20,865 nt of DNA from a virus: IMG/VR virus record IMGVR_UViG_3300009285_012492, positions 1-20,865 of that record; one strand, 5' to 3'. The notes below the pieces were generated by a model, which saw only the letters and a list, made by a program, of their open reading frames with translations, was not told the origin of the DNA and searched no databases. The position numbers and the translations under genes were made by a program. Position 1 is the stretch's first letter. Every line of letters starts with the position of its first letter. Below, piece after piece: positions 9,855 through 20,865 of the stretch.

Positions 9855-10814
9855 TTAGACTGCGCTTTCCAGACGATAGATGTGGCCGTTCTCAATCCGA
9901 GCGAAACCCCAGATTGCGTACCACGCCAGGGAGTGATTACGCCCGAAGTCCTCCACCCCATCATCCCTCAACTCAATGCTCAATCCGATTCCCTGACCCC
10001 AAGCATTGTCCCCGAAGATCGTGGATAGATAGACATTCGTAGCCGAGGAATAGGTGGCAGCATTGGAAGTCGTATCACCACGGTCGTCGAAGATGTTCCC
10101 TGTCGTATCAACGTAACGAACTTGTGTCGTTTCGATGAAGGTCACATCTTCGTATCGACCGATCTCACCCAAGAACAACTGATCCGGAGCGCCATAGTTG
10201 CTGGCGTTCTGCCAAGCACCGTCGTCACGGACACGCCGCCCCTGCTTCGGATGGATGAAGCAGATATAGCTATTTCCGTTGTACTTCGGGGCCTTGTTCG
10301 TCGCCAGATTGACTACCGCTTCTTTTACCAAGTCCGTATCGAAGTAGTCCACAGCCGTGATATCCGCTCGCGCTGTTTTTCCGTTGGCGTAGAGAACATT
10401 TGATGTTCCCTCTACAGTTGTAGCATGAGCGTCATCCAGAACCACAGCAGCGTCGTGACCCAGAACCCTAGACATCGAACTCATCATGTCGTCGAACGAC
10501 ACGACACGCAGATGTTCGGAGATCTGGACAGCATTGCCGTATTCTGACAGGGTAATCGAAACAGTGGACGTTCCAAGGGAACGCTTTGTCATTGCAGTCC
10601 CTTCCGTCAGCGTTCCACCACGGGTAAGATCGCTGTACTTCAGGAACTGAATGGCATTTCCAGGAATCCGCCCGATCTCTTCCTTCTTCTCCGCAAACTG
10701 GTCATACCGGAGAAGGGGCTGAGATGCGAACCGAATTTCCTGGGAATAGATGGTACGAAGAGCATCAGACAGTTGTACCGTTGCGTTACTAGTTGCACCA
10801 GTGGAGACAGCCAT
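9855..10814 (-). CDS. Major capsid protein, N4-gp56 family
   Basis: A 319-aa protein matching the N4-gp56-type major capsid family, an HK97-fold shell protein. The N-terminus (SDALRTIYSQEIRFASQPLLRYDQFAEKK) and KRSLGTSTVSITLSEYGNAVQISEHLR are typical of the family. FIHPKQGRRVRDDGAWQNAS and the later EIGRYEDVTFIETTQV follow the usual order, and the C-terminus ends in strands WYAIWGFARIENGHIYRLES. ATG at 10814 has GGGAGG just upstream. It lies directly after the scaffold gene, which is the standard order. No protease gene is seen between portal and capsid, so maturation cleavage may be absent or encoded elsewhere. Confidence 0.85.
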   Translation of the reverse strand: MAVSTGATSNATVQLSDALRTIYSQEIRFASQPLLRYDQFAEKKEEIGRIPGNAIQFLKYSDLTRGGTLTEGTAMTKRSLGTSTVSITLSEYGNAVQISEHLRVVSFDDMMSSMSRVLGHDAAVVLDDAHATTVEGTSNVLYANGKTARADITAVDYFDTDLVKEAVVNLATNKAPKYNGNSYICFIHPKQGRRVRDDGAWQNASNYGAPDQLFLGEIGRYEDVTFIETTQVRYVDTTGNIFDDRGDTTSNAATYSSATNVYLSTIFGDNAWGQGIGLSIELRDDGVEDFGRNHSLAWYAIWGFARIENGHIYRLESAV

Positions 10815-12282: not shown

Positions 12283-13884
12283 CTATTCTCTGCTCGCTTC
12301 CACATAAGTATTCCGAAGGTCTTTAGGCTTTCTCGCCGGAGTCTCCCCTTCCACATCGGCTTTTTTCTCCGGAGCAGTTTCTTCTTCTGTGTTTATTCCA
12401 CCAAGGTTTGTTTCCGTACCCGCAGGTCTCATAGGATTGGTGGTATCGTTGTCTATCTCTTCAAGAATTTGCTCCACATCCTCCGGTGGAGTTCCAAGAT
12501 CCCGAAGAGCTTGCGCCCTGCTTGTAATTCCAGAATTCAATTTTTGTGCAATCAGTTGCATCTCGATAAGACGATCCTTCGGTAGAGGACTGTCCCATCG
12601 GAGCTTCATACGCCGCCATAGAATAGGATTCTCCAATTTAATCTTGTTTTGAGCACTATCGGAACCGGCTTCCGGTCTGAATTTTACAAGACCGGATTCC
12701 TCCATCCACCGAAGCGCAAGATGTGTGATACGAAGAATGCCGTTCCCGTAAGTTCTCTGTTTTCTAACGGTCTTTTTCATCAAGGGCAGGTAGTTCATAT
12801 GAAGAGCCACACCGGATGTATTGGAAATCGGTTGGGTTTCTCCCAGAGCCCCAAGGGGAGTAGCGGTCAATTCGTGCATCGCCAGACGGAGAAGTTCAAG
12901 ATAACGAACGGTAGCCGGAAGATCGGAAATCAATTCCAGATTTTCCACTCTGGCATCTTTAGGAAGACCCCAAACTTTGTTTGCTCCTTTTTCGATGTTT
13001 TCAATTCTGGCCCCAAACACCAAGGTAGTCGGAGCACCGTGGTACTGAATGATATCCGATGTATCGGACAGCTTCTCGTTGAACTCTTCATTCAAGTCCG
13101 AGATATCGTCGATGTCACTTATGCCATACGAGCCAAAGCCAGGAAGATTATGAACATGAACTACGTTTATCTCTCCAAGAGGATTTTTAGAATCATCAAT
13201 GACAGCCCCATCTATGTACTGTTTTATTTTTTCTCGCGTGATGTCTTGTGTGTAAATTTGCCAGTTTATGGACCCCTTTTCATCCACATCGTAAATGGGG
13301 TAAGAAATCAAGCAACGAATCATTCGTCTCTTGTCATGCGGATCGTAGATAGGAAAAACCGTTGAGCTATCCAAAACAACCAGCTTTATCCCGGGCTCTC
13401 CGTTCTCCATTGTATCCCCGTCCACGTCCATTGTGACTTGAACGAAGCAATCACCGGTCACACCTCCCACCGTAGCCATGTCATAAACAAGGGTTTCCCT
13501 GTCATTCATCTCTTCCCAAACCGTGTCAGCAAGTTCTTTCAGACCCTCATTCCCTTGGAACGGTTCGAGAACCCAAAGATTGCCGACAAGAAAATCAGAA
13601 GAAAAATCCACAAATCTACGACAGTAATTTATTTTCTGCTTGCGTGTCTCTCCCAATGGTTGGTATCGCCAATGATCGCCGTTATAAAGACGCCAGAGTT
13701 TTTGATATTTCAATATCCGTTCTTGGTGGGATTGGGCTACCGTAGTTGGAAGTCCCCCAAGTTTTTGAAGGTTCTGCATAAAATGAGGAAGGAGATCGTT
13801 TCCGCCGGAGGAGGCGTACTTATCCGTGAAGACCGCCCCCCCAAATCTCCGGCGTTTGAAATCGAGATCATCTTTATGGGGCAT
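12283..13884 (-). CDS. Portal protein (SPP1 gp6-like)
   Basis: A 533-aa portal protein, the dodecameric ring at the capsid vertex through which DNA is packaged. The N-terminal third has YQKLWRLYNGDHW and KINYCRRFVDFSSDFLVGN, typical of the Phage_prot_Gp6 group. The central region carries VVLDSSTVFPIYDP and NVVHVHNLPGFGSYGISDIDDISDLNEEFNEKLS (the crown/wing segment ahead of the tunnel helices). Residues near 355-400 (ELTATPLGALGETQPISNTSGVALHM) contain the usual S-G-x-A-L motif. The C-terminus is a disordered acidic tail. ATG at 13884 overlaps nothing and follows the TerL stop by 3 bp; AAGGG lies upstream. Confidence 0.88.
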   Translation of the reverse strand: MPHKDDLDFKRRRFGGAVFTDKYASSGGNDLLPHFMQNLQKLGGLPTTVAQSHQERILKYQKLWRLYNGDHWRYQPLGETRKQKINYCRRFVDFSSDFLVGNLWVLEPFQGNEGLKELADTVWEEMNDRETLVYDMATVGGVTGDCFVQVTMDVDGDTMENGEPGIKLVVLDSSTVFPIYDPHDKRRMIRCLISYPIYDVDEKGSINWQIYTQDITREKIKQYIDGAVIDDSKNPLGEINVVHVHNLPGFGSYGISDIDDISDLNEEFNEKLSDTSDIIQYHGAPTTLVFGARIENIEKGANKVWGLPKDARVENLELISDLPATVRYLELLRLAMHELTATPLGALGETQPISNTSGVALHMNYLPLMKKTVRKQRTYGNGILRITHLALRWMEESGLVKFRPEAGSDSAQNKIKLENPILWRRMKLRWDSPLPKDRLIEMQLIAQKLNSGITSRAQALRDLGTPPEDVEQILEEIDNDTTNPMRPAGTETNLGGINTEEETAPEKKADVEGETPARKPKDLRNTYVEASRE

Positions 13885-13887
13885 TTT

Positions 13888-16800
13888 TCACCCTTTTAAG
13901 AACATGTTCTCTTTCAACGAGGAAACCCTGACATTCGCAGGCTCTCTGGAAGCAAAACGGGCCAAAGCAAGCGAACAACAGTTATGGACTAGAAACCCTC
14001 CAGCAAAGTATTCGTGGCAACCTTCCACAGCTAAATTATAAACAGGAGTTTTTCTGTAGACAACTGAAATGTTTGCCACACGAAACGGAGCAACAGAAGG
14101 AACTCTTTCTGTACTTATTTCGACTGTATCGTGTATAGATAACGTGTCAAGACGTACAAAACCACGACCATCCACGAAAACAGGATGATTCGGAGTCCCT
14201 TCCAGGATATACCCATTTTCTGTGGTAACTTTAATCAAAGAATCAACCGTTCTTGTTTGAGAAGAAACCAGGACTCTCCGCAATCCAACTCTTGTCCAAA
14301 CCAAGCTGTTAGTTTCCACTTTCTCTATAGGAACATCCCCATCAACCGTTTTTATGGGAGTACCGGCAGGAAAACAATAATCGTCATGGGCATCTGGTTC
14401 ATTAGGTGCCTCACACAACATACACTCTCCCACATAATCCTTCTCCAAATCAAGCATCTGTTGTCTGAATCTTCTCCACTCCGCAGTTTCGTCACATCCT
14501 TCATTGGCGGGATAGGTAAGTCGTCTTCCCTCCATATCCGCAGACAGGGACTTGAAAGCGTTGCTTTTCCATTGCATCGTAAACGTCACGGGTTCCACGA
14601 CCACATTCTGAAGCATCCCCGCCAACCGATCTGCCAGAAGGGATTCTTTTGTGGAGTCTATGGACAACTTTACCACGTTAAATTGTTTAAGATATTCCAC
14701 GATCTTCGTGAATTGTTTTTCGTAGTTGTCCCCGAAAAGTTCAAGCCATCCCAATACATGCGTTTTGTAGCTCTCATACTCCACCGTACTCTCGACGCTC
14801 ACCCCCTTGAACATTTCCACCGGGTGCTCCCAATCCACTTCCAGGATCGTGACCACCGTGGAATCCCTGATTCTTCCAAGGTCGATCCCGGCTACATGAA
14901 CCCCTGCTTTCTTCGACCCAAAGACATAGCCATATCTCTCGTCATAGCCGTTCTTCTCGAATTCTTTCCAGGCATCCCCGGCCAAGCCGCACTTCTCGAA
15001 AGACTCGTCTGCGATAAACATGCCGCGCTCTGTAAGCCACATGATTCTGTAACTTCTTTTGAATTCATCGGAATTTTCTCCGAGTCTTCGTTTTTCTTTT
15101 TCGATATACTTCGCATAGAACGGACTGTGTTTCTGGCACTCCACATAGTCATATTCAAAATGATTTTTGGCCCCGCCCGCCACCGCCAGTTGCTTGTTCC
15201 TTCGAATCGCCTTGTAGAATTCCCTCTTGCGGATTCCGGGTGTGCCGATTTTCACAAGAGTCCCAGATACGGCGGCAACCATCGGATGGATTCCCTGCCG
15301 GATCTTCTCGTCTCCGATATCCTGAGTTTCATCCAAGATGGCAACATGGTAGCTTGCACCCTCCACATGCGCTTTCTCACTGGCCGAACGGGATACTACA
15401 TAGCTGCCGTTTGATAACTGGCATGTATCCCCGTTGCTGGTGGTAAAAATCAAACCCGCTTCCCGAAGAATCATCGAGCTTGTCTCCGTCATCAAAATGG
15501 TGCGGATTTTGTTGTACAGAAGATTGCTCTGATCCTGCTTGGGTGCGTAAACCCCGAACTTAGCACCCTCTTTGAATCCGACATAAAGATGGCGGATTTT
15601 ACGATTGAATCTCTGATCATCCAAAAACATCTCCGCCAGCTTGGGAAGCATGACCATCGCGGAAGCGCACAAGCAAGCGACCGCCGTGCTTTTCCCCGAA
15701 TTATGCACACAGAAACCCTGTGAGATAAACCACCCTTTTTTCGGAAAATAAGCGTCATAGGTCGGTCTAACTCCCACAGATCTGATAGATCTGACCCGCG
15801 CCCAGCAGAGATGCTCTCCGTCCTCTCCAATGAGCGCATGCGGTCGAGAACATCTTCTACTGTTCCCTTTTCCACCTCGTTTGTACTTTTTCAGAAAATC
15901 GTCGATTTGTTTCAATACTCTCTTACACGATTCTTCTTTACCAAAAATCAGACCGATACTTTTGAAAAATTTCTCACAATTAGCATCACCAGAAACAATA
16001 AGACGTCGGAATAGCTTGCCGTCCCGGTTTTTTTGCATGCGTTCTCTTTTTAACCGGGATGGGATTCCAAAAAGCAGCAATAAAGATTGGCAGTATCGTG
16101 CGTAGGTCTCGTTGTTGCCGCAACATAATCCCAACTCTCCCGATTCTCTTCCACCAGAAGTTGAATGTATGGAGATATATCCATCCGCAGCCCAGAATCT
16201 ATTCAAAAAATGTTTTTGGTATGATCTTGGAAAAGAAAAAATATCCAATGGAAATCCACAATCTGTCCGTAGACAACGAATAAAAAACCGTAGAGAATTT
16301 CCGTCAGGTTGCCTGTTCCGTGAGGTAAAGAGTAAATCATAACCCTTTCCTTTTTTGTATTTTTTGATTTGCACGTCTGGAAACTCAGCTTGCACGATTC
16401 TTGTAACTTCATCCAAATACAAACTGGACACGCTTGTAAATTTTATTGATTGTCCTTTTTTCACAGCATTGAAACAGTACCCATCTGCCGTGAGATACCC
16501 AAGCAATGCACACCGATCTTTGGTAAGACGCACTTTTCCAGAAAAGGTTTTAGTATGTCCATGCTTGTCAAAGCAGTCAAATTTACCGGAAAAGACAGTT
16601 CTTTTTCTCGGCCCAGAAAGACTTTCCAAAACCGCCACTTTGTCTCCCCGCTTCAAATCCTCCAACCGGGTGAACCCCTTCTCCGTGCGAAATGGATGAT
16701 TGGCGGTCGCCAGGAGCGTATGTTGACCAGCGGAAATCTCATAACATTTTTGTTTTCCGGTGCTCCATGCTCCTTCATAGTCTTCAATCCGGCAGGCGGT

Positions 16801-16947
16801 TCCATCTCGACGAAAAATCACAGATCCTTCCGCCAAACATTGCCGGGAAAACAGTGCCGTAATCTCTTCCCCTTCGCATTCCAGGATGGATATGTACACC
16901 CTTTTCATAAACGGGATCTGATAGGGAAAAAGTTTTATTTCCGCCAT
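13888..16947 (-). CDS. terL: Terminase large subunit with two inteins
   Basis: This encodes the packaging motor ATPase and headful/site nuclease. The precursor is 1019 aa from ATG 16947. Removing inteins (residues 37-416 and 858-989) leaves about 507 aa, a normal TerL size. Exteins join to ALFSRQ-SGKST, the deviant Walker A of terminases. Walker B is VAILDETQD (D539, E540). The RNase H-like nuclease carries AGIDLG (D689), LSID (D764) and AHDDY (D855, D856). The start is unresolved. The frame stays open to ATG 17490, which has a strong AAGGAG site. That would add 181 hydrophilic, junk-like residues overlapping a better-looking basic ORF. STEEICDKLVLLAE just upstream of ATG 16947 resembles genuine terminase sequence, and the RBS at 16947 is poor. 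The stop lies 3 bp before the portal gene. Confidence 0.9.
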   Translation of the reverse strand: MAEIKLFPYQIPFMKRVYISILECEGEEITALFSRQCLAEGSVIFRRDGTACRIEDYEGAWSTGKQKCYEISAGQHTLLATANHPFRTEKGFTRLEDLKRGDKVAVLESLSGPRKRTVFSGKFDCFDKHGHTKTFSGKVRLTKDRCALLGYLTADGYCFNAVKKGQSIKFTSVSSLYLDEVTRIVQAEFPDVQIKKYKKGKGYDLLFTSRNRQPDGNSLRFFIRCLRTDCGFPLDIFSFPRSYQKHFLNRFWAADGYISIHSTSGGRESGELGLCCGNNETYARYCQSLLLLFGIPSRLKRERMQKNRDGKLFRRLIVSGDANCEKFFKSIGLIFGKEESCKRVLKQIDDFLKKYKRGGKGNSRRCSRPHALIGEDGEHLCWARVRSIRSVGVRPTYDAYFPKKGWFISQGFCVHNSGKSTAVACLCASAMVMLPKLAEMFLDDQRFNRKIRHLYVGFKEGAKFGVYAPKQDQSNLLYNKIRTILMTETSSMILREAGLIFTTSNGDTCQLSNGSYVVSRSASEKAHVEGASYHVAILDETQDIGDEKIRQGIHPMVAAVSGTLVKIGTPGIRKREFYKAIRRNKQLAVAGGAKNHFEYDYVECQKHSPFYAKYIEKEKRRLGENSDEFKRSYRIMWLTERGMFIADESFEKCGLAGDAWKEFEKNGYDERYGYVFGSKKAGVHVAGIDLGRIRDSTVVTILEVDWEHPVEMFKGVSVESTVEYESYKTHVLGWLELFGDNYEKQFTKIVEYLKQFNVVKLSIDSTKESLLADRLAGMLQNVVVEPVTFTMQWKSNAFKSLSADMEGRRLTYPANEGCDETAEWRRFRQQMLDLEKDYVGECMLCEAPNEPDAHDDYCFPAGTPIKTVDGDVPIEKVETNSLVWTRVGLRRVLVSSQTRTVDSLIKVTTENGYILEGTPNHPVFVDGRGFVRLDTLSIHDTVEISTERVPSVAPFRVANISVVYRKTPVYNLAVEGCHEYFAGGFLVHNCCSLALARFASREPANVRVSSLKENMFLKG
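13981..14376 (-). other. Mini-intein 2 in TerL nuclease motif
   Basis: A 132-aa in-frame insertion. It begins CFPAGTPIKTVDGD (splicing block A, Cys1) and has GTPNHPVFV (block B, TxxH). It ends YNLAVEGCHEYFAGGFLVHN (blocks F and G), followed by Cys as the +1 extein residue. The size matches a minimal Hint domain without an endonuclease. It interrupts AHDDY-CCSLALA, the third acidic motif of the terminase nuclease, so the nuclease is inactive until splicing. All residues needed for class 1 splicing (Cys1, block B His, terminal His-Asn, +1 Cys) are present. Confidence 0.93.
15700..16839 (-). other. Intein 1 with LAGLIDADG endonuclease in TerL Walker A
   Basis: A 380-aa in-frame insertion. It begins CLAEGSVIFRRDG (block A, Cys1) and contains TANHPF (block B). 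It ends YDAYFPKKGWFISQGFCVHN (blocks F and G), with Ser as the +1 extein residue. Between the splicing halves are two dodecapeptide-like motifs about 100 residues apart, LLGYLTADGY and FLNRFWAADGY. These identify a LAGLIDADG (DOD) homing endonuclease. The acidic residues of both motifs are retained, so it may be active. The site SRQ-SGKST lies inside the ATPase P-loop. Confidence 0.95.
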
Positions 16948-17003
16948 CGTCTCCGCGAGAAGAACCAGCTTGTCACAGATTTCTTCCGTGGAGTACGTAC
17001 AGA

Positions 17004-17459
17004 CTAGAAGAGCTTTTTCCGGCCCCTGCCGAACAGGCCCTTGCTCTTTCTTCCGAATCCCAGCCGAAGACCCGTCGGGCGGAATCCCTTCATTGCATGG
17101 CGTGCTACTTTCACCGCCGGATGGAAGTATCCCACTCTCCGAAGAAGCGTTCGCCGGATGTTCCCCGGCACCCGGAACGGTCTCTTGATCGCCGTGATCC
17201 CGACTTTCTTGAGAAGGCGTCTCTTGAGAAGCAATCCGCCTGTCAAGGCTTTCGCGGATACTCCCCGGAATCGAATCAACTGCGCCGGACGAAGAGCCCC
17301 GAATCTCACCTTTGGACCGATGGCTCCCGTTGCTCTCGACCCCGGCAGTCTGGCTTTGATCCGGCTTGCGATTTTCTGCGAGAGACTCTTCGGCCCTGCT
17401 CTTCTTCCGCCGAACCCTCGTCGCCTTCCGCCGCCCCTTCTTCCGCCCCCTCTCGCCAT
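17004..17459 (-). CDS. Highly basic protein upstream of TerL (151 aa)
   Basis: A 151-aa protein with extreme Arg/Lys/Gly content. It starts MARGGGRRGGGRRRGFGGRR, followed by amphipathic basic segments such as LLLKRRLLKKVGITAIKRPF and RRVGYFHPAVKVARHAMKGF, and ends GRGRKKLF. ATG at 17459 has AAGGAAG with suitable spacing and is preceded by a run of seven A. It is overlapped along its length by the upstream extension of the TerL frame (offset +1), so only one may be translated as drawn. Hydrophobic periodicity favours this frame as real. It may bind DNA or act as a small-terminase substitute, but no family is recognised. Confidence 0.55.
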   Translation of the reverse strand: MARGGGRRGGGRRRGFGGRRAGPKSLSQKIASRIKARLPGSRATGAIGPKVRFGALRPAQLIRFRGVSAKALTGGLLLKRRLLKKVGITAIKRPFRVPGNIRRTLLRRVGYFHPAVKVARHAMKGFRPTGLRLGFGRKSKGLFGRGRKKLF

Positions 17460-17490
17460 TTTTTTCTTCCTTTACTACCGGCTTCCCCAT

Positions 17491-17534
17491 TAAGATTCTC
17501 CTTATAAGAGAAGCATACACGCAAGGCTCCAATC
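17491..17534. promoter_or_regulatory. Divergent strand-switch intergenic region
   Basis: These 44 bp separate the leftward virion operon from the rightward queD gene. They hold the AAGGAG site for ATG 17490 on the minus strand and the palindrome CTTATAAG (17501-17508), with flanks TCTC/GAGA that extend it imperfectly. Promoters for both directions should lie here or just inside the neighbouring genes, but no convincing -35/-10 pair is visible. Confidence 0.35.
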
Positions 17535-17966
17535 GTGTACAGAGTCGTGAAAAGAATACCCTTCTGCTACGGCCACAGGCTCGTTCACCACACTGGCAAG
17601 TGCCGGTTCCTCCATGGCCACAACGCCACAGCAGAAATCACCGTGGAATCCGACAAGCTCGATTCCACCGGGTTCGTCATCGACTTCGGGGTTATCAAGG
17701 AAAAAGTCAAGACACTCATCGACTTCGAGTACGACCACACCATGCTTCTCTGGGAGGGAGATCCGGTCGTTTCGTTTCTCAAGGACGCCGGGGAGAAGTT
17801 CCGTCTCTTCCCGTTCCATCCCACCGCCGAAAATCTGGCGGAAAGGATTCATAATCAGGTCCGTCTGTTGCTGCCGGAGGTTCTTGTCAGGTCCGTTGGA
17901 ATTTTCGAGACCGGGGATTCCAGGGCAACATATATGGAAAAAGAATACAAGGAGAACGAGGAATGA
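17535..17966 (+). CDS. queD: 6-carboxytetrahydropterin synthase / PTPS family (QueD-like)
   Basis: A 143-aa complete pterin-synthase fold protein. Zinc ligands His14, His27 and His29 are visible in FCYGHR and CRFLHGHN. Cys23 is the catalytic Cys of the CxxxHGH motif, Asp67-His68 form the DH pair, PTAENLAERI is the conserved helix, and Glu125 in GIFETGDS is the pterin-anchoring Glu. All active-site residues are intact. In QueD the enzyme converts dihydroneopterin triphosphate to 6-carboxytetrahydropterin on the way to preQ0. In phages this feeds 7-deazaguanine DNA modification or host queuosine. GTG at 17535 is the start, with AAGG upstream. A eukaryote-type PTPS function is possible but less likely in a phage. 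Its stop overlaps the next gene as ATGA. Confidence 0.9.
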   Translation: MYRVVKRIPFCYGHRLVHHTGKCRFLHGHNATAEITVESDKLDSTGFVIDFGVIKEKVKTLIDFEYDHTMLLWEGDPVVSFLKDAGEKFRLFPFHPTAENLAERIHNQVRLLLPEVLVRSVGIFETGDSRATYMEKEYKENEE

Positions 17967-18334: not shown

Positions 18335-18350
18335 TCTCTCCTATCTCTTG

Positions 18351-18386
18351 CCCTCCCTTCCAGTCGCGTGGAAGGGAGGGTTTTTT
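18351..18386 (+). terminator. Rho-independent terminator of the queD operon
   Basis: Stem CCCTCCCTTCC (18351-18361) pairs perfectly with GGAAGGGAGGG (18370-18380) across an 8-nt loop and is followed by TTTTTT. It begins 16 bp after the stop of the 123-aa gene. It is a strong intrinsic terminator on the plus strand. Confidence 0.95.
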
Positions 18387-18510
18387 ATTTCTCCCCAGGA
18401 AGAGAGAGTTTTTGTTTCCGCAAAATTTCGGCGGAAATAATAAAAATAAAGAAGAGAAGTAATACCACGAACTCTTCACGCGCACCCTTGCAAACCCCGG
18501 CTGCTCAGGT

Positions 18511-18770
18511 ATTATTAGTTTTTATTCGTCCTCATGTCAGGAGTTCTATTAATAGTTTTTACCCGTTCCTATAACTATCTTTCGGGGACGGAAGAGGAAG
18601 AGAATTTCTGTTATTAGTTTCACCCATTCCTATATTCATTACCCGGGGTCCTATACCAAGATTTATTATTAGTTTTACCCATTCCTATATTTGTTATTCG
18701 GGACCTTTTACCTATATCTATTATTAGTTTTTACCCGATCCTATATCCATTACCTGGGGTCCTATACCTA
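18511..18770 (+). repeat. Degenerate tandem repeats, ~55-bp period
   Basis: Four to five copies share TTATTAGTTT, ACCCATTCCTATAT, ATTAC(C)CGGG and GTCCTATACC in this order. The TTATTAG element begins at 18611, 18666 and 18721 (55 bp apart). A diverged copy lies near 18546 and a partial one at 18512. The last and third copies are most alike. The TTATTAGTTTT element also recurs in the distal block at about 20043. Confidence 0.8.
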
Positions 18771-18880
18771 AGGCTATACTCACATAAACAATTATAGCTA
18801 AGGGTAGGGTGTACACGCACACAACCGCCTGCCTAGCCTTTAAGCCAGGCCTTGAGTTTGCCTTCAATCCAGGAGCAAGA

Positions 18881-18959
18881 GCCAGGATGCATTTGATCCT
18901 GGTGCTGGAGCCAAGATGTAATTGATCCTGGCGCACAACCATCGGATTGATCCTGGCGC
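18881..18959 (+). repeat. TTGATCCTGG direct repeats with an inverted copy
   Basis: TTGATCCTGG occurs at 18893, 18922 and 18947 (spacings 29 and 25 bp), each followed by TGC or CGC. An inverted CCAGGAT at 18882 pairs with the first copy to make a 7-bp hairpin with a 7-nt loop. They look like iterons or protein-binding sites. Confidence 0.7.
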
Positions 18960-18968
18960 TAGACTAGA

Positions 18969-18998
18969 CTATGGGTAAACAAGCCGGGCTATGGGTAA
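18969..18998 (+). repeat. CTATGGGTAA direct repeat
   Basis: The 10-mer CTATGGGTAA occurs at 18969 and 18989, exactly 20 bp apart (about two helical turns). It lies just downstream of the TTGATCCTGG repeats and upstream of the putative promoter, an arrangement typical of regulator binding sites. Confidence 0.55.
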
Positions 18999-19042
18999 TC
19001 GACAATAGAGGAAAATACCTTTAAGAATTTTTTATTTTTTAC

Positions 19043-19070
19043 TTGCGTATGCCGATACATGGGATAGACT
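19043..19070 (+). promoter_or_regulatory. Possible sigma70-like promoter for the 122-aa gene
   Basis: TTGCGT (19043-19048) and TAGACT (19065-19070) are separated by 16 bp, with a TGGGA just before the -10, and an upstream AT-rich tract (about 19021-19042) acts like an UP element. Both hexamers are only partial matches to consensus. The following leader is about 145 nt. Confidence 0.35.
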
Positions 19071-19176
19071 ACTAGTGTCATTGATCTATGAGAAAGAGGG
19101 GAAGCGGGAAACGGGGAACGGCCGGAAGAGGAATTTTCCGACATCCGATTCTACCGTGACCGTGATGAAACTTTTG

Positions 19177-19193
19177 CCGGGTTGTCCACCCGG
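19177..19193 (+). other. Leader hairpin before the 122-aa gene
   Basis: CCGGGT and ACCCGG form a 6-bp stem with a 5-nt loop, ending about 10 nt before the AGGAGG ribosome site (near 19205). It could influence ribosome access or message stability. Confidence 0.35.
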
Positions 19194-19217
19194 TAGTGTG
19201 CAGTAGGAGGTAGCCAA

Positions 19218-19586
19218 ATGGCTACGTTCATTTTGGGGAAAACCGGATTCCACGTGAAATCCGGGAACAAAAGCATTGCATGGGGTGAGAACCCTGTCAA
19301 TGCGGCACGTGACGGCGGATTGAAATTCCGTAAGTACACGGAAGGCAAGCCGCCCAAGGGTTCCAAGTCTCTGGACGCCGTTTCCGAATTCCGCCACTAC
19401 ATGAAGGCGGCGGAAAAGGAAGCGAACGCGCCGGATGACAAGGGTCTGCAGGGGAAGACGGACAAAACGCTTGCGCTCTTGCGCAAGATTTTGACCGTCA
19501 AGCCCAAGGCCACCAAGGCCACCAAGGTCAAGGCCACCAAGGCCACCAAGGCCACCAAGGTCAAGGCTAGCTCCAAGAAGAAGTAG
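19218..19586 (+). CDS. Small protein with histone H1-like Lys/Ala/Thr tail
   Basis: A 122-aa protein. The N-terminal part (MATFILGKTGFHVKSGNKS, then FRKYTEGKPPKGSKSLDAVSEFRHYMKAA) is soluble and basic. The C-terminus is a repetitive tail of KATKATKVK units ending SSKKK, like bacterial and chlamydial histone H1-type nucleoid proteins. The tail is encoded by near-perfect 9-bp GCCACCAAG repeats, so it can expand or shrink by slippage. ATG at 19218 has an ideal TAGGAGG at 8 nt. It is flanked by an upstream control region and a downstream terminator, making it a monocistronic unit. A DNA-binding role is inferred from composition only. Confidence 0.78.
   Translation: MATFILGKTGFHVKSGNKSIAWGENPVNAARDGGLKFRKYTEGKPPKGSKSLDAVSEFRHYMKAAEKEANAPDDKGLQGKTDKTLALLRKILTVKPKATKATKVKATKATKATKVKASSKKK
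19508..19567 (+). repeat. GCCACCAAG tandem coding repeats
   Basis: Blocks of two and three GCCACCAAG nonamers, each closed by GTCAAG, encode the KATKATKVK tail. Synonymous codons are identical between copies, indicating recent duplication or slippage rather than protein-level convergence. Confidence 0.85.
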
Positions 19587-19665: not shown

Positions 19666-19977
19666 GTGAAGCGCGGCACATTTTCGGCGCAAGGACTGCG
19701 TGACACTTTCCGCGATCTGCAGCGGTTGCGGAAAGCGGAAAAGAAGTACGGGTTGGATTCTGATGAGTGTGAAAGAGAATTGAGGTTGATTGCCAAAATT
19801 CTTCGGGAACCGTTGTGGGACGAGGAAGAAGAAAAGGAAGAGGATGACCGGATTCAACGTGCTCATGAATCCACTAGTAACAACACTTGGGTGTGTGAGG
19901 AGTGCCAGGATTACTGCACCGAGAGACAGATACGCTGTCCAAGGTGCGGGAAGGTTCGACCGGATTACGCTATCTAA
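19666..19977 (+). CDS. Zinc-ribbon protein
   Basis: A 103-aa protein with a basic helical N-terminus (GLRDTFRDLQRLRKAEKKYG), a central acidic run (WDEEEEKEEDD), and a C-terminal zinc finger WVCEECQDYCTERQIRCPRCGK. The spacing Cys-x2-Cys, x10, Cys-x2-Cys plus the preceding Trp resembles RanBP2-type/zinc-ribbon modules. The start is GTG 19666, with AAAGGAAG about 7 nt upstream. It sits between two terminators. A nucleic-acid- or protein-binding regulator is plausible; no specific role can be assigned. Confidence 0.8.
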   Translation: MKRGTFSAQGLRDTFRDLQRLRKAEKKYGLDSDECERELRLIAKILREPLWDEEEEKEEDDRIQRAHESTSNNTWVCEECQDYCTERQIRCPRCGKVRPDYAI

Positions 19978-19983
19978 TCCATT

Positions 19984-20015
19984 CCCCCACTACTTCGGTA
20001 GTGGGGGATTTTTTT
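19984..20015 (+). terminator. Strong intrinsic terminator with UUCG loop
   Basis: CCCCCACTAC (19984-19993) pairs perfectly with GTAGTGGGGG (19998-20007) around a stable TTCG tetraloop, followed by A and seven T. It ends transcription of the zinc-ribbon gene. Confidence 0.97.
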
Positions 20016-20068
20016 ACCTCTACTTTTGTTTGTCATCTTGTGTTATTAGTTTTCTATTATTCTTTTAT

Positions 20069-20176
20069 CCCGCGCAAATTTTCCTGCCTCCTCTGTACTC
20101 GCCTGCTGCCCTCTCTTTTGTTCTGTACGGCATCTATTCTGTTATTCTCATCCCGCGCAAATTTTTTACCTCCTGC
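20069..20176 (+). repeat. CCCGCGCAAATTTT dispersed repeats
   Basis: CCCGCGCAAATTTT followed by (C)CTGCCTCC or ACCTCCTGCC occurs at about 20069 and 20152. A diverged TCTGCGCAACTTTTCTGCCTCC lies near 20572. They are part of the same repetitive tract. Confidence 0.65.
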
Positions 20177-20249
20177 CTGTACTGCTCCTTGTAATAAAAA
20201 ATTTTTTCTCCTTCCTTGATGGTGGGAAAAATTTTTACCTCTGCCTTGC

Positions 20250-20355
20250 AGCTTTTTAGTTTTACAGCTTTTACGGTTTTACAGTTTTTCCGCCTTTTAG
20301 TTTTATAGCCTTTTAGTATTATAGCCTTCTAGTTTTGCAACCTTTTAGTTTTACG
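20250..20355 (+). repeat. 16-bp tandem repeats (GCCTTTTAGTTTTATA type)
   Basis: Four consecutive 16-bp units start at 20292, 20308, 20324 and 20340 (consensus GCCTTTTAGTTTTATA, one to three differences each). Related GCTTTTTAGTTTTACA units begin at 20250 and 20266. The TAGTTTT core matches that of the TTATTAGTTTT repeats further left. Confidence 0.8.
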
Positions 20356-20419
20356 ATTTTACCACCTACTTCCTGCCTTGCTTTTTTATTTTTCCTTCCT
20401 CCTTCTCCTACCGGTATTT

Positions 20420-20865
20420 CTGGGCACCTGAACCTACGGGTACCTTTTTTCTGGGCCTCCTTATTGTGCGGTACCTTTTTTCTATTCCTTCCTTATTCTA
20501 TTACTATTAATTTCTGGGCCTGTGCTCCTGCGGGTACCTTTTTTTAGTTTGGTTATTATTCTTATTATTATTCTGCGCAACTTTTCTGCCTCCTTCCTTG
20601 ATTGAAGATACTATTCCTTCCTCCTGGTACTAATTTCTGGGCCTGTATCCTTGGAGGAACCTCCTGTTACTACTATTATTATTTTCTGGGCCTCCTATAC
20701 TATGGGAACCTCCTGCTATTATTTTTTCTGGGCCTGCCTTGTCATGGGTACCTTTTCTGGGCCTCTATTCCTGTGAGTACCTTTTTCTGGGCCTGCCTAT
20801 TGCCGGGTACCTTTTGCTGGGCCTGTGGGATTACAAGTACCTTATTAGAGCCTTTTCCTAGGTAC
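20420..20865 (+). repeat. CTGGGCC-N12-GGTACC repeat array
   Basis: Nine copies of CTGGGC(C/A), then exactly 12 variable nucleotides, then GGTACC (twice GGAACC, twice AGTACC), and usually a T-run. Copies start at 20420, 20451, 20514, 20637, 20686, 20728, 20757, 20787 and 20817. Spacings cluster at 29-31 bp or about multiples of it. A degenerate tenth copy (GAGCC then GGTAC) ends the window. Constant halves with variable spacers of fixed length suggest a two-part recognition site or short hairpin element. Confidence 0.88.

Follow-up and report, generated by a model that had tools for sequence, protein, structure and literature searches.

What are the nine 25-base units at the end of this virus contig for, and what reads them? 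The window analyzed here is the complete record, a virus contig of 20,865 bases, and the units sit in gene-free, pyrimidine-rich DNA (63-73% on the plus strand) that runs to the contig end. The sequence-only reading had offered a dimeric protein recognition array, an origin or packaging site, or a family of small mobile hairpins whose interiors might covary.

The array and its two conserved blocks

Between positions 20420 and 20841, the motif CTGGGC(C)-N12-(G)G(T/A)ACC recurs nine times as a direct repeat, always on the plus strand and with equal internal length. Four of the nine match the 25-base unit exactly (copies 2, 3, 6 and 8, at 20451..20475, 20514..20538, 20728..20752 and 20787..20811), and the remaining copies carry one change each: copy 1 (20420..20444) reads CTGGGCA-N12-GGTACC, copies 4 and 5 (20637..20661 and 20686..20710) have GGAACC as their right half, and copies 7 and 9 (20757..20781 and 20817..20841) have AGTACC. 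The half-sites had been called conserved; they are slightly less uniform than that description implied, with CTGGGCC present in eight of nine copies and GGTACC intact in five of nine. The distance from TGGGC to G[TA]ACC is 14 nt in 9/9 copies, and a check of spacings 8 through 25 in the array region turned up no pair at another distance, bearing out the proposal of a nine-copy array with an invariant spacer. Conservation reaches slightly past the half-sites, to approximately TTNCTGGGCCTSY-N8-RGKWACCT, leaving roughly 8 nt of interior that is truly free to vary.

The gaps between units are irregular (6, 38, 98, 24, 17, 4, 5 and 5 nt). Since both interiors and gaps differ among the copies, these are not collapsed duplicates of one read. 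At the contig end (about 20846-20865) there is a degenerate AGAGCC-N8-GGTAC, weak and truncated, whose spacing would differ if it were a copy.

In dinucleotide-preserving shuffles of 19979-20865 (n = 20,000), the array pattern occurred on average 0.00065 times and at most once per shuffle. A weight matrix gave the nine copies 36-46 bits, and the next best place in the window, on either strand, 13 bits. Departures from the consensus affected 5 of 117 half-site cells versus 49 of 108 interior cells. Ten columns were invariant, compared with a maximum of eight in 200,000 trials of an equal-rate simulation, and columns picked on four copies remained conserved in the other five. The imbalance between half-sites and interior indicates that two blocks were selectively kept, rather than left over from mere tandem-repeat decay. 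A site contacted at two places would show this pattern, which a decaying tandem repeat does not give.

The nine units are very probably protein-binding sites of some kind, best read as asymmetric and bipartite and all recognized by the same sequence-specific DNA-binding protein. The constrained halves and free middle predict a protein, probably phage encoded, that would read CTGGGCC and GGTACC by contacting the DNA at two places with centers about 18 bp apart, ignoring most of the sequence between them. The earlier idea of a dimer-bound array or origin thus survives in part: the fixed-distance blocks, direct orientation, noncoding setting and neighboring A+T-rich repeats agree with it, whereas a symmetric dimer is not indicated, because neither half-site is an inverted copy of the other.

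Looking for CTGGGCC-N12-GGTACC elsewhere, as had been advised, revealed no further site in the 20.9 kb and no second array in the scans of IMG/VR, in one scan of GTDB contigs or among the relatives examined. An exact single-unit scan of IMG/VR gave eight single matches, with no second unit in the surrounding DNA examined, and a two-unit scan gave no match. One two-unit scan of GTDB contigs returned three isolated matches, two of them in GC-rich DNA, and no array. Right-half-only and relaxed two-unit scans of IMG/VR yielded no array of the 25-base unit, nor did a left-half-only scan among the matches listed; matches in the half-site and relaxed scans (for the left half, among those listed) were mostly open frames, many of them collagen-like by DNA, or unrelated repeats. 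In a bipartite-array scan of the loci examined, relatives included, only the window has the array. We found no DNA similarity to phage and plasmid collections, and a literature search for the motif returned nothing relevant. The absence of the array elsewhere covers only IMG/VR, one GTDB contig scan and the relatives' loci examined. The sequence of the array is new; its kind is already known.

Candidate uses of the array

The most likely use, which we put forward tentatively, is an iteron-type replication origin. The protein would load on the nine sites and help open an A+T-rich tandem repeat just upstream (20246..20361, plus strand; about six AGTTTTACAGCCTTTT-like units of 16 nt), a candidate unwinding region. 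In lambda and in iteron plasmids, initiator sites lie beside the region to be opened (PMC5043065), and the RepA iteron is among the four repeat types in the noncoding region of the phage satellite PLE (PMC7145576). The locus resembles iteron origins (phage lambda ori, P1, RK2 and the PLE ori) in its cluster of nine direct repeats, to which initiator binding is putative, in noncoding DNA adjoining A+T-rich repeats; as in PLE, several repeat types share the noncoding stretch. When 100-bp stretches of the window are ranked from the least stable upward, 20472-20571, between copies 2 and 4, comes third and 20253-20352, in the tandem repeat, fifth, the unwinding itself being predicted. However, the array departs from iteron origins in having two conserved blocks around a variable interior and irregular gaps. 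The irregular gaps count against an origin, as do the lack of an initiator gene in the window, where the contig ends within the array, the lack of a DnaA box near the array and its absence from all relatives examined. Helical phasing was not evident at 10.5 bp (R = 0.40), R being 0.77 at 10.2 bp, with P = 0.013 in a jitter test over several periods. GC skew showed no switch attributable to the array apart from gene direction.

We regard control of transcription as rather unlikely. A phage repressor or activator would bind the units as asymmetric bipartite sites, in the manner of cluster A mycobacteriophages, in which a repressor monomer recognizes asymmetric operators and stoperators through two DNA-binding domains (PMC9283540). 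That precedent would explain the non-inverted half-sites, since the array too could plausibly be read by two domains of one protein, and its sites are likewise asymmetric, in one orientation and downstream of plus-strand genes. Stoperators, in contrast, are scattered and 13 bp long, whereas the array is a single cluster of 25-bp units with no second site in 20.9 kb (13 versus 36-46 bits).

Partition is an unlikely use as well. A ParB- or TubR-type protein would bind the nine direct repeats to segregate a plasmid-like prophage. Direct-repeat clusters are typical of such systems, and each parS locus of mycobacteriophage RedRock repeats an 8-bp motif eight times in direct orientation (PMC7157519), a similar cluster in phage DNA. 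The unit described here is longer than that motif and bipartite, and the window shows no sign of lysogeny. No parA- or parB-like gene was seen among the window proteins scanned, the flank past the contig end being missing. If the array is an origin or a centromere, this is where a divergent lineage of tailed phages has its control region, and the 25-bp unit would be a short DNA probe for fishing out the cognate binding protein.

Doubtful, too, is a new type of phage origin or partition array in which the site would be a tandem pair of GGG(N0-2)CCT words at a fixed distance, read by proteins of a family that has so far had no connection with sites of this sort. The word is present in both half-sites, as GGGCCT on the left and GGGTACCT on the right (in copy 1, GGGCACCT and GGGTACCT), and it recurs in the 55-nt repeats of the neighboring noncoding region. 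On the plus strand, 19978-20865 has 14 occurrences and 18335-19217 has five (a count that takes in overlapping matches, all within those 55-nt repeats); the first 18.3 kb has two, which overlap. Related words in the two noncoding regions may be read by a single protein, a post hoc lead only.

That the units are non-functional slippage products in low-complexity noncoding DNA seems improbable to us. The two noncoding stretches do hold at least four other repeat families besides the array, but equal-rate decay gives no two conserved blocks around a variable interior, and gaps of 4 to 98 nt fit simple slippage poorly.

An element acting as RNA is disfavored and very unlikely. It would consist of tandem mini-hairpins followed by U-runs, either terminator-like or bound by a protein, and T-runs do follow several copies; three copies fit a loose terminator pattern. 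Weak stems are possible in individual copies, and covarying mini-hairpins had been suggested, but interior covariation was absent by half swaps, fixed-register pair counts and pooled-interior shuffles. When right halves were swapped between copies, the summed energy was unchanged (-44.2 observed versus a permutation mean of -44.6, P = 0.52). In the copies at 20757 and 20817, a G-to-A change at position 20 breaks the pair with C7, with no compensation. The whole array folded no better than its shuffles on either strand (z = +0.71 and +1.62). With neither an RNA fold nor covariation, the constraint points to double-stranded DNA and a protein.

Several further classes were rejected. An array of intrinsic terminators was set aside, as the swap and fold tests showed no stable conserved hairpin before a U-run. 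Small mobile hairpins, another of the original suggestions, found no support either: the window has no dispersed copies, the IMG/VR scans gave no array, and a REP- or MITE-like family would call for scattered copies that can fold into a conserved hairpin, which were not found. A CRISPR array was rejected since the interior varies inside the repeat and the unit gaps, from 4 to 98 nt, are not constant.

A packaging (pac/cos) site, to which the small terminase (TerS) would bind, is the least probable use: some phages are known to carry several TerS-binding repeats and the large terminase (TerL) gene starts about 2.9 kb from the array, but no recognizable TerS gene adjoins it and the terminase gene runs the opposite way.

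The surrounding genome fragment

Judged from its sequence, the contig is a 20.9-kb piece of the genome of a divergent tailed phage. The genes for the major head protein (9855-10814) and portal (12283-13884) and the TerL reading frame (13888-17532) are on the minus strand, as are sugar-modifying genes; the plus strand carries a QueD-like gene (17535-17966) and three small open reading frames (ORFs) without a family match. Identity is about 43% to the closest capsid proteins found and 35% to the portal of Streptomyces phage BRock, the best match to the portal in a named phage, so the noncoding DNA has no close relative for comparison.

The gene nearest to the array is a plus-strand ORF of 103 amino acids (19666..19977) that has a C-terminal CxxC-CxxC zinc ribbon and no family match. 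Its predicted structure (mean pLDDT 79) has a weak likeness to RanBP2-type zinc fingers (best E 0.45), too weak to call it the array-binding protein. A plus-strand ORF of 122 amino acids (19218-19586), with a lysine/alanine/threonine-repeat tail (KATKATKVKATK), possibly encodes a DNA-coating protein; relatives were sought and none found, and its structure model was unusable (pLDDT 50). Searches for relatives of two small plus-strand ORFs likewise found none. A strong intrinsic-terminator-like hairpin (19983..20008, plus strand) closes the upstream gene, the last one visible, before the noncoding region. It coincides with the one Rfam match, to NsiR1 and below threshold; there was otherwise none.

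Other repeats were noted in the noncoding DNA. The other noncoding region carries, at 18508-18776, a 55-nt repeat with YGGGGTCCTATACC, in three good copies and fragments of two more; no other 100 bp in the window is as unstable as a stretch within it. Three copies of TTGATCCTGGYGC lie at 18893-18963. In the same noncoding stretch as the array, ATCCCGCGCAAATTTT occurs twice exactly and once as ATTCTGCGCAACTTTT, at 20067, 20150 and 20570.

Elsewhere, viral contig L244 has at 1150-1330 a GGGTACC-containing 22-bp direct-repeat array, CCTGGTTTTGGGTACCTTTARY, that looks like an iteron cluster. It resembles the array described here in being made of direct repeats with GGGTACCTTT in noncoding viral-contig DNA. 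It differs in its unit, CCTGGTTTTGGGTACCTTTARY, and its uniform interior, and the likeness may be due to chance. Noncoding DNA at L237:1965-2049 and L252:8926-9020 (reverse strand) has many irregularly spaced GGTACC palindromes, which are possibly regulator sites.

Finally, the minus-strand TerL frame (13888-17532) contains two apparent inteins, recognized by eye in the translation: the large one lies in the Walker A region (SRQ|C...HN|SGKST), the small one close to the end of the frame (DDY|C...HN|C).
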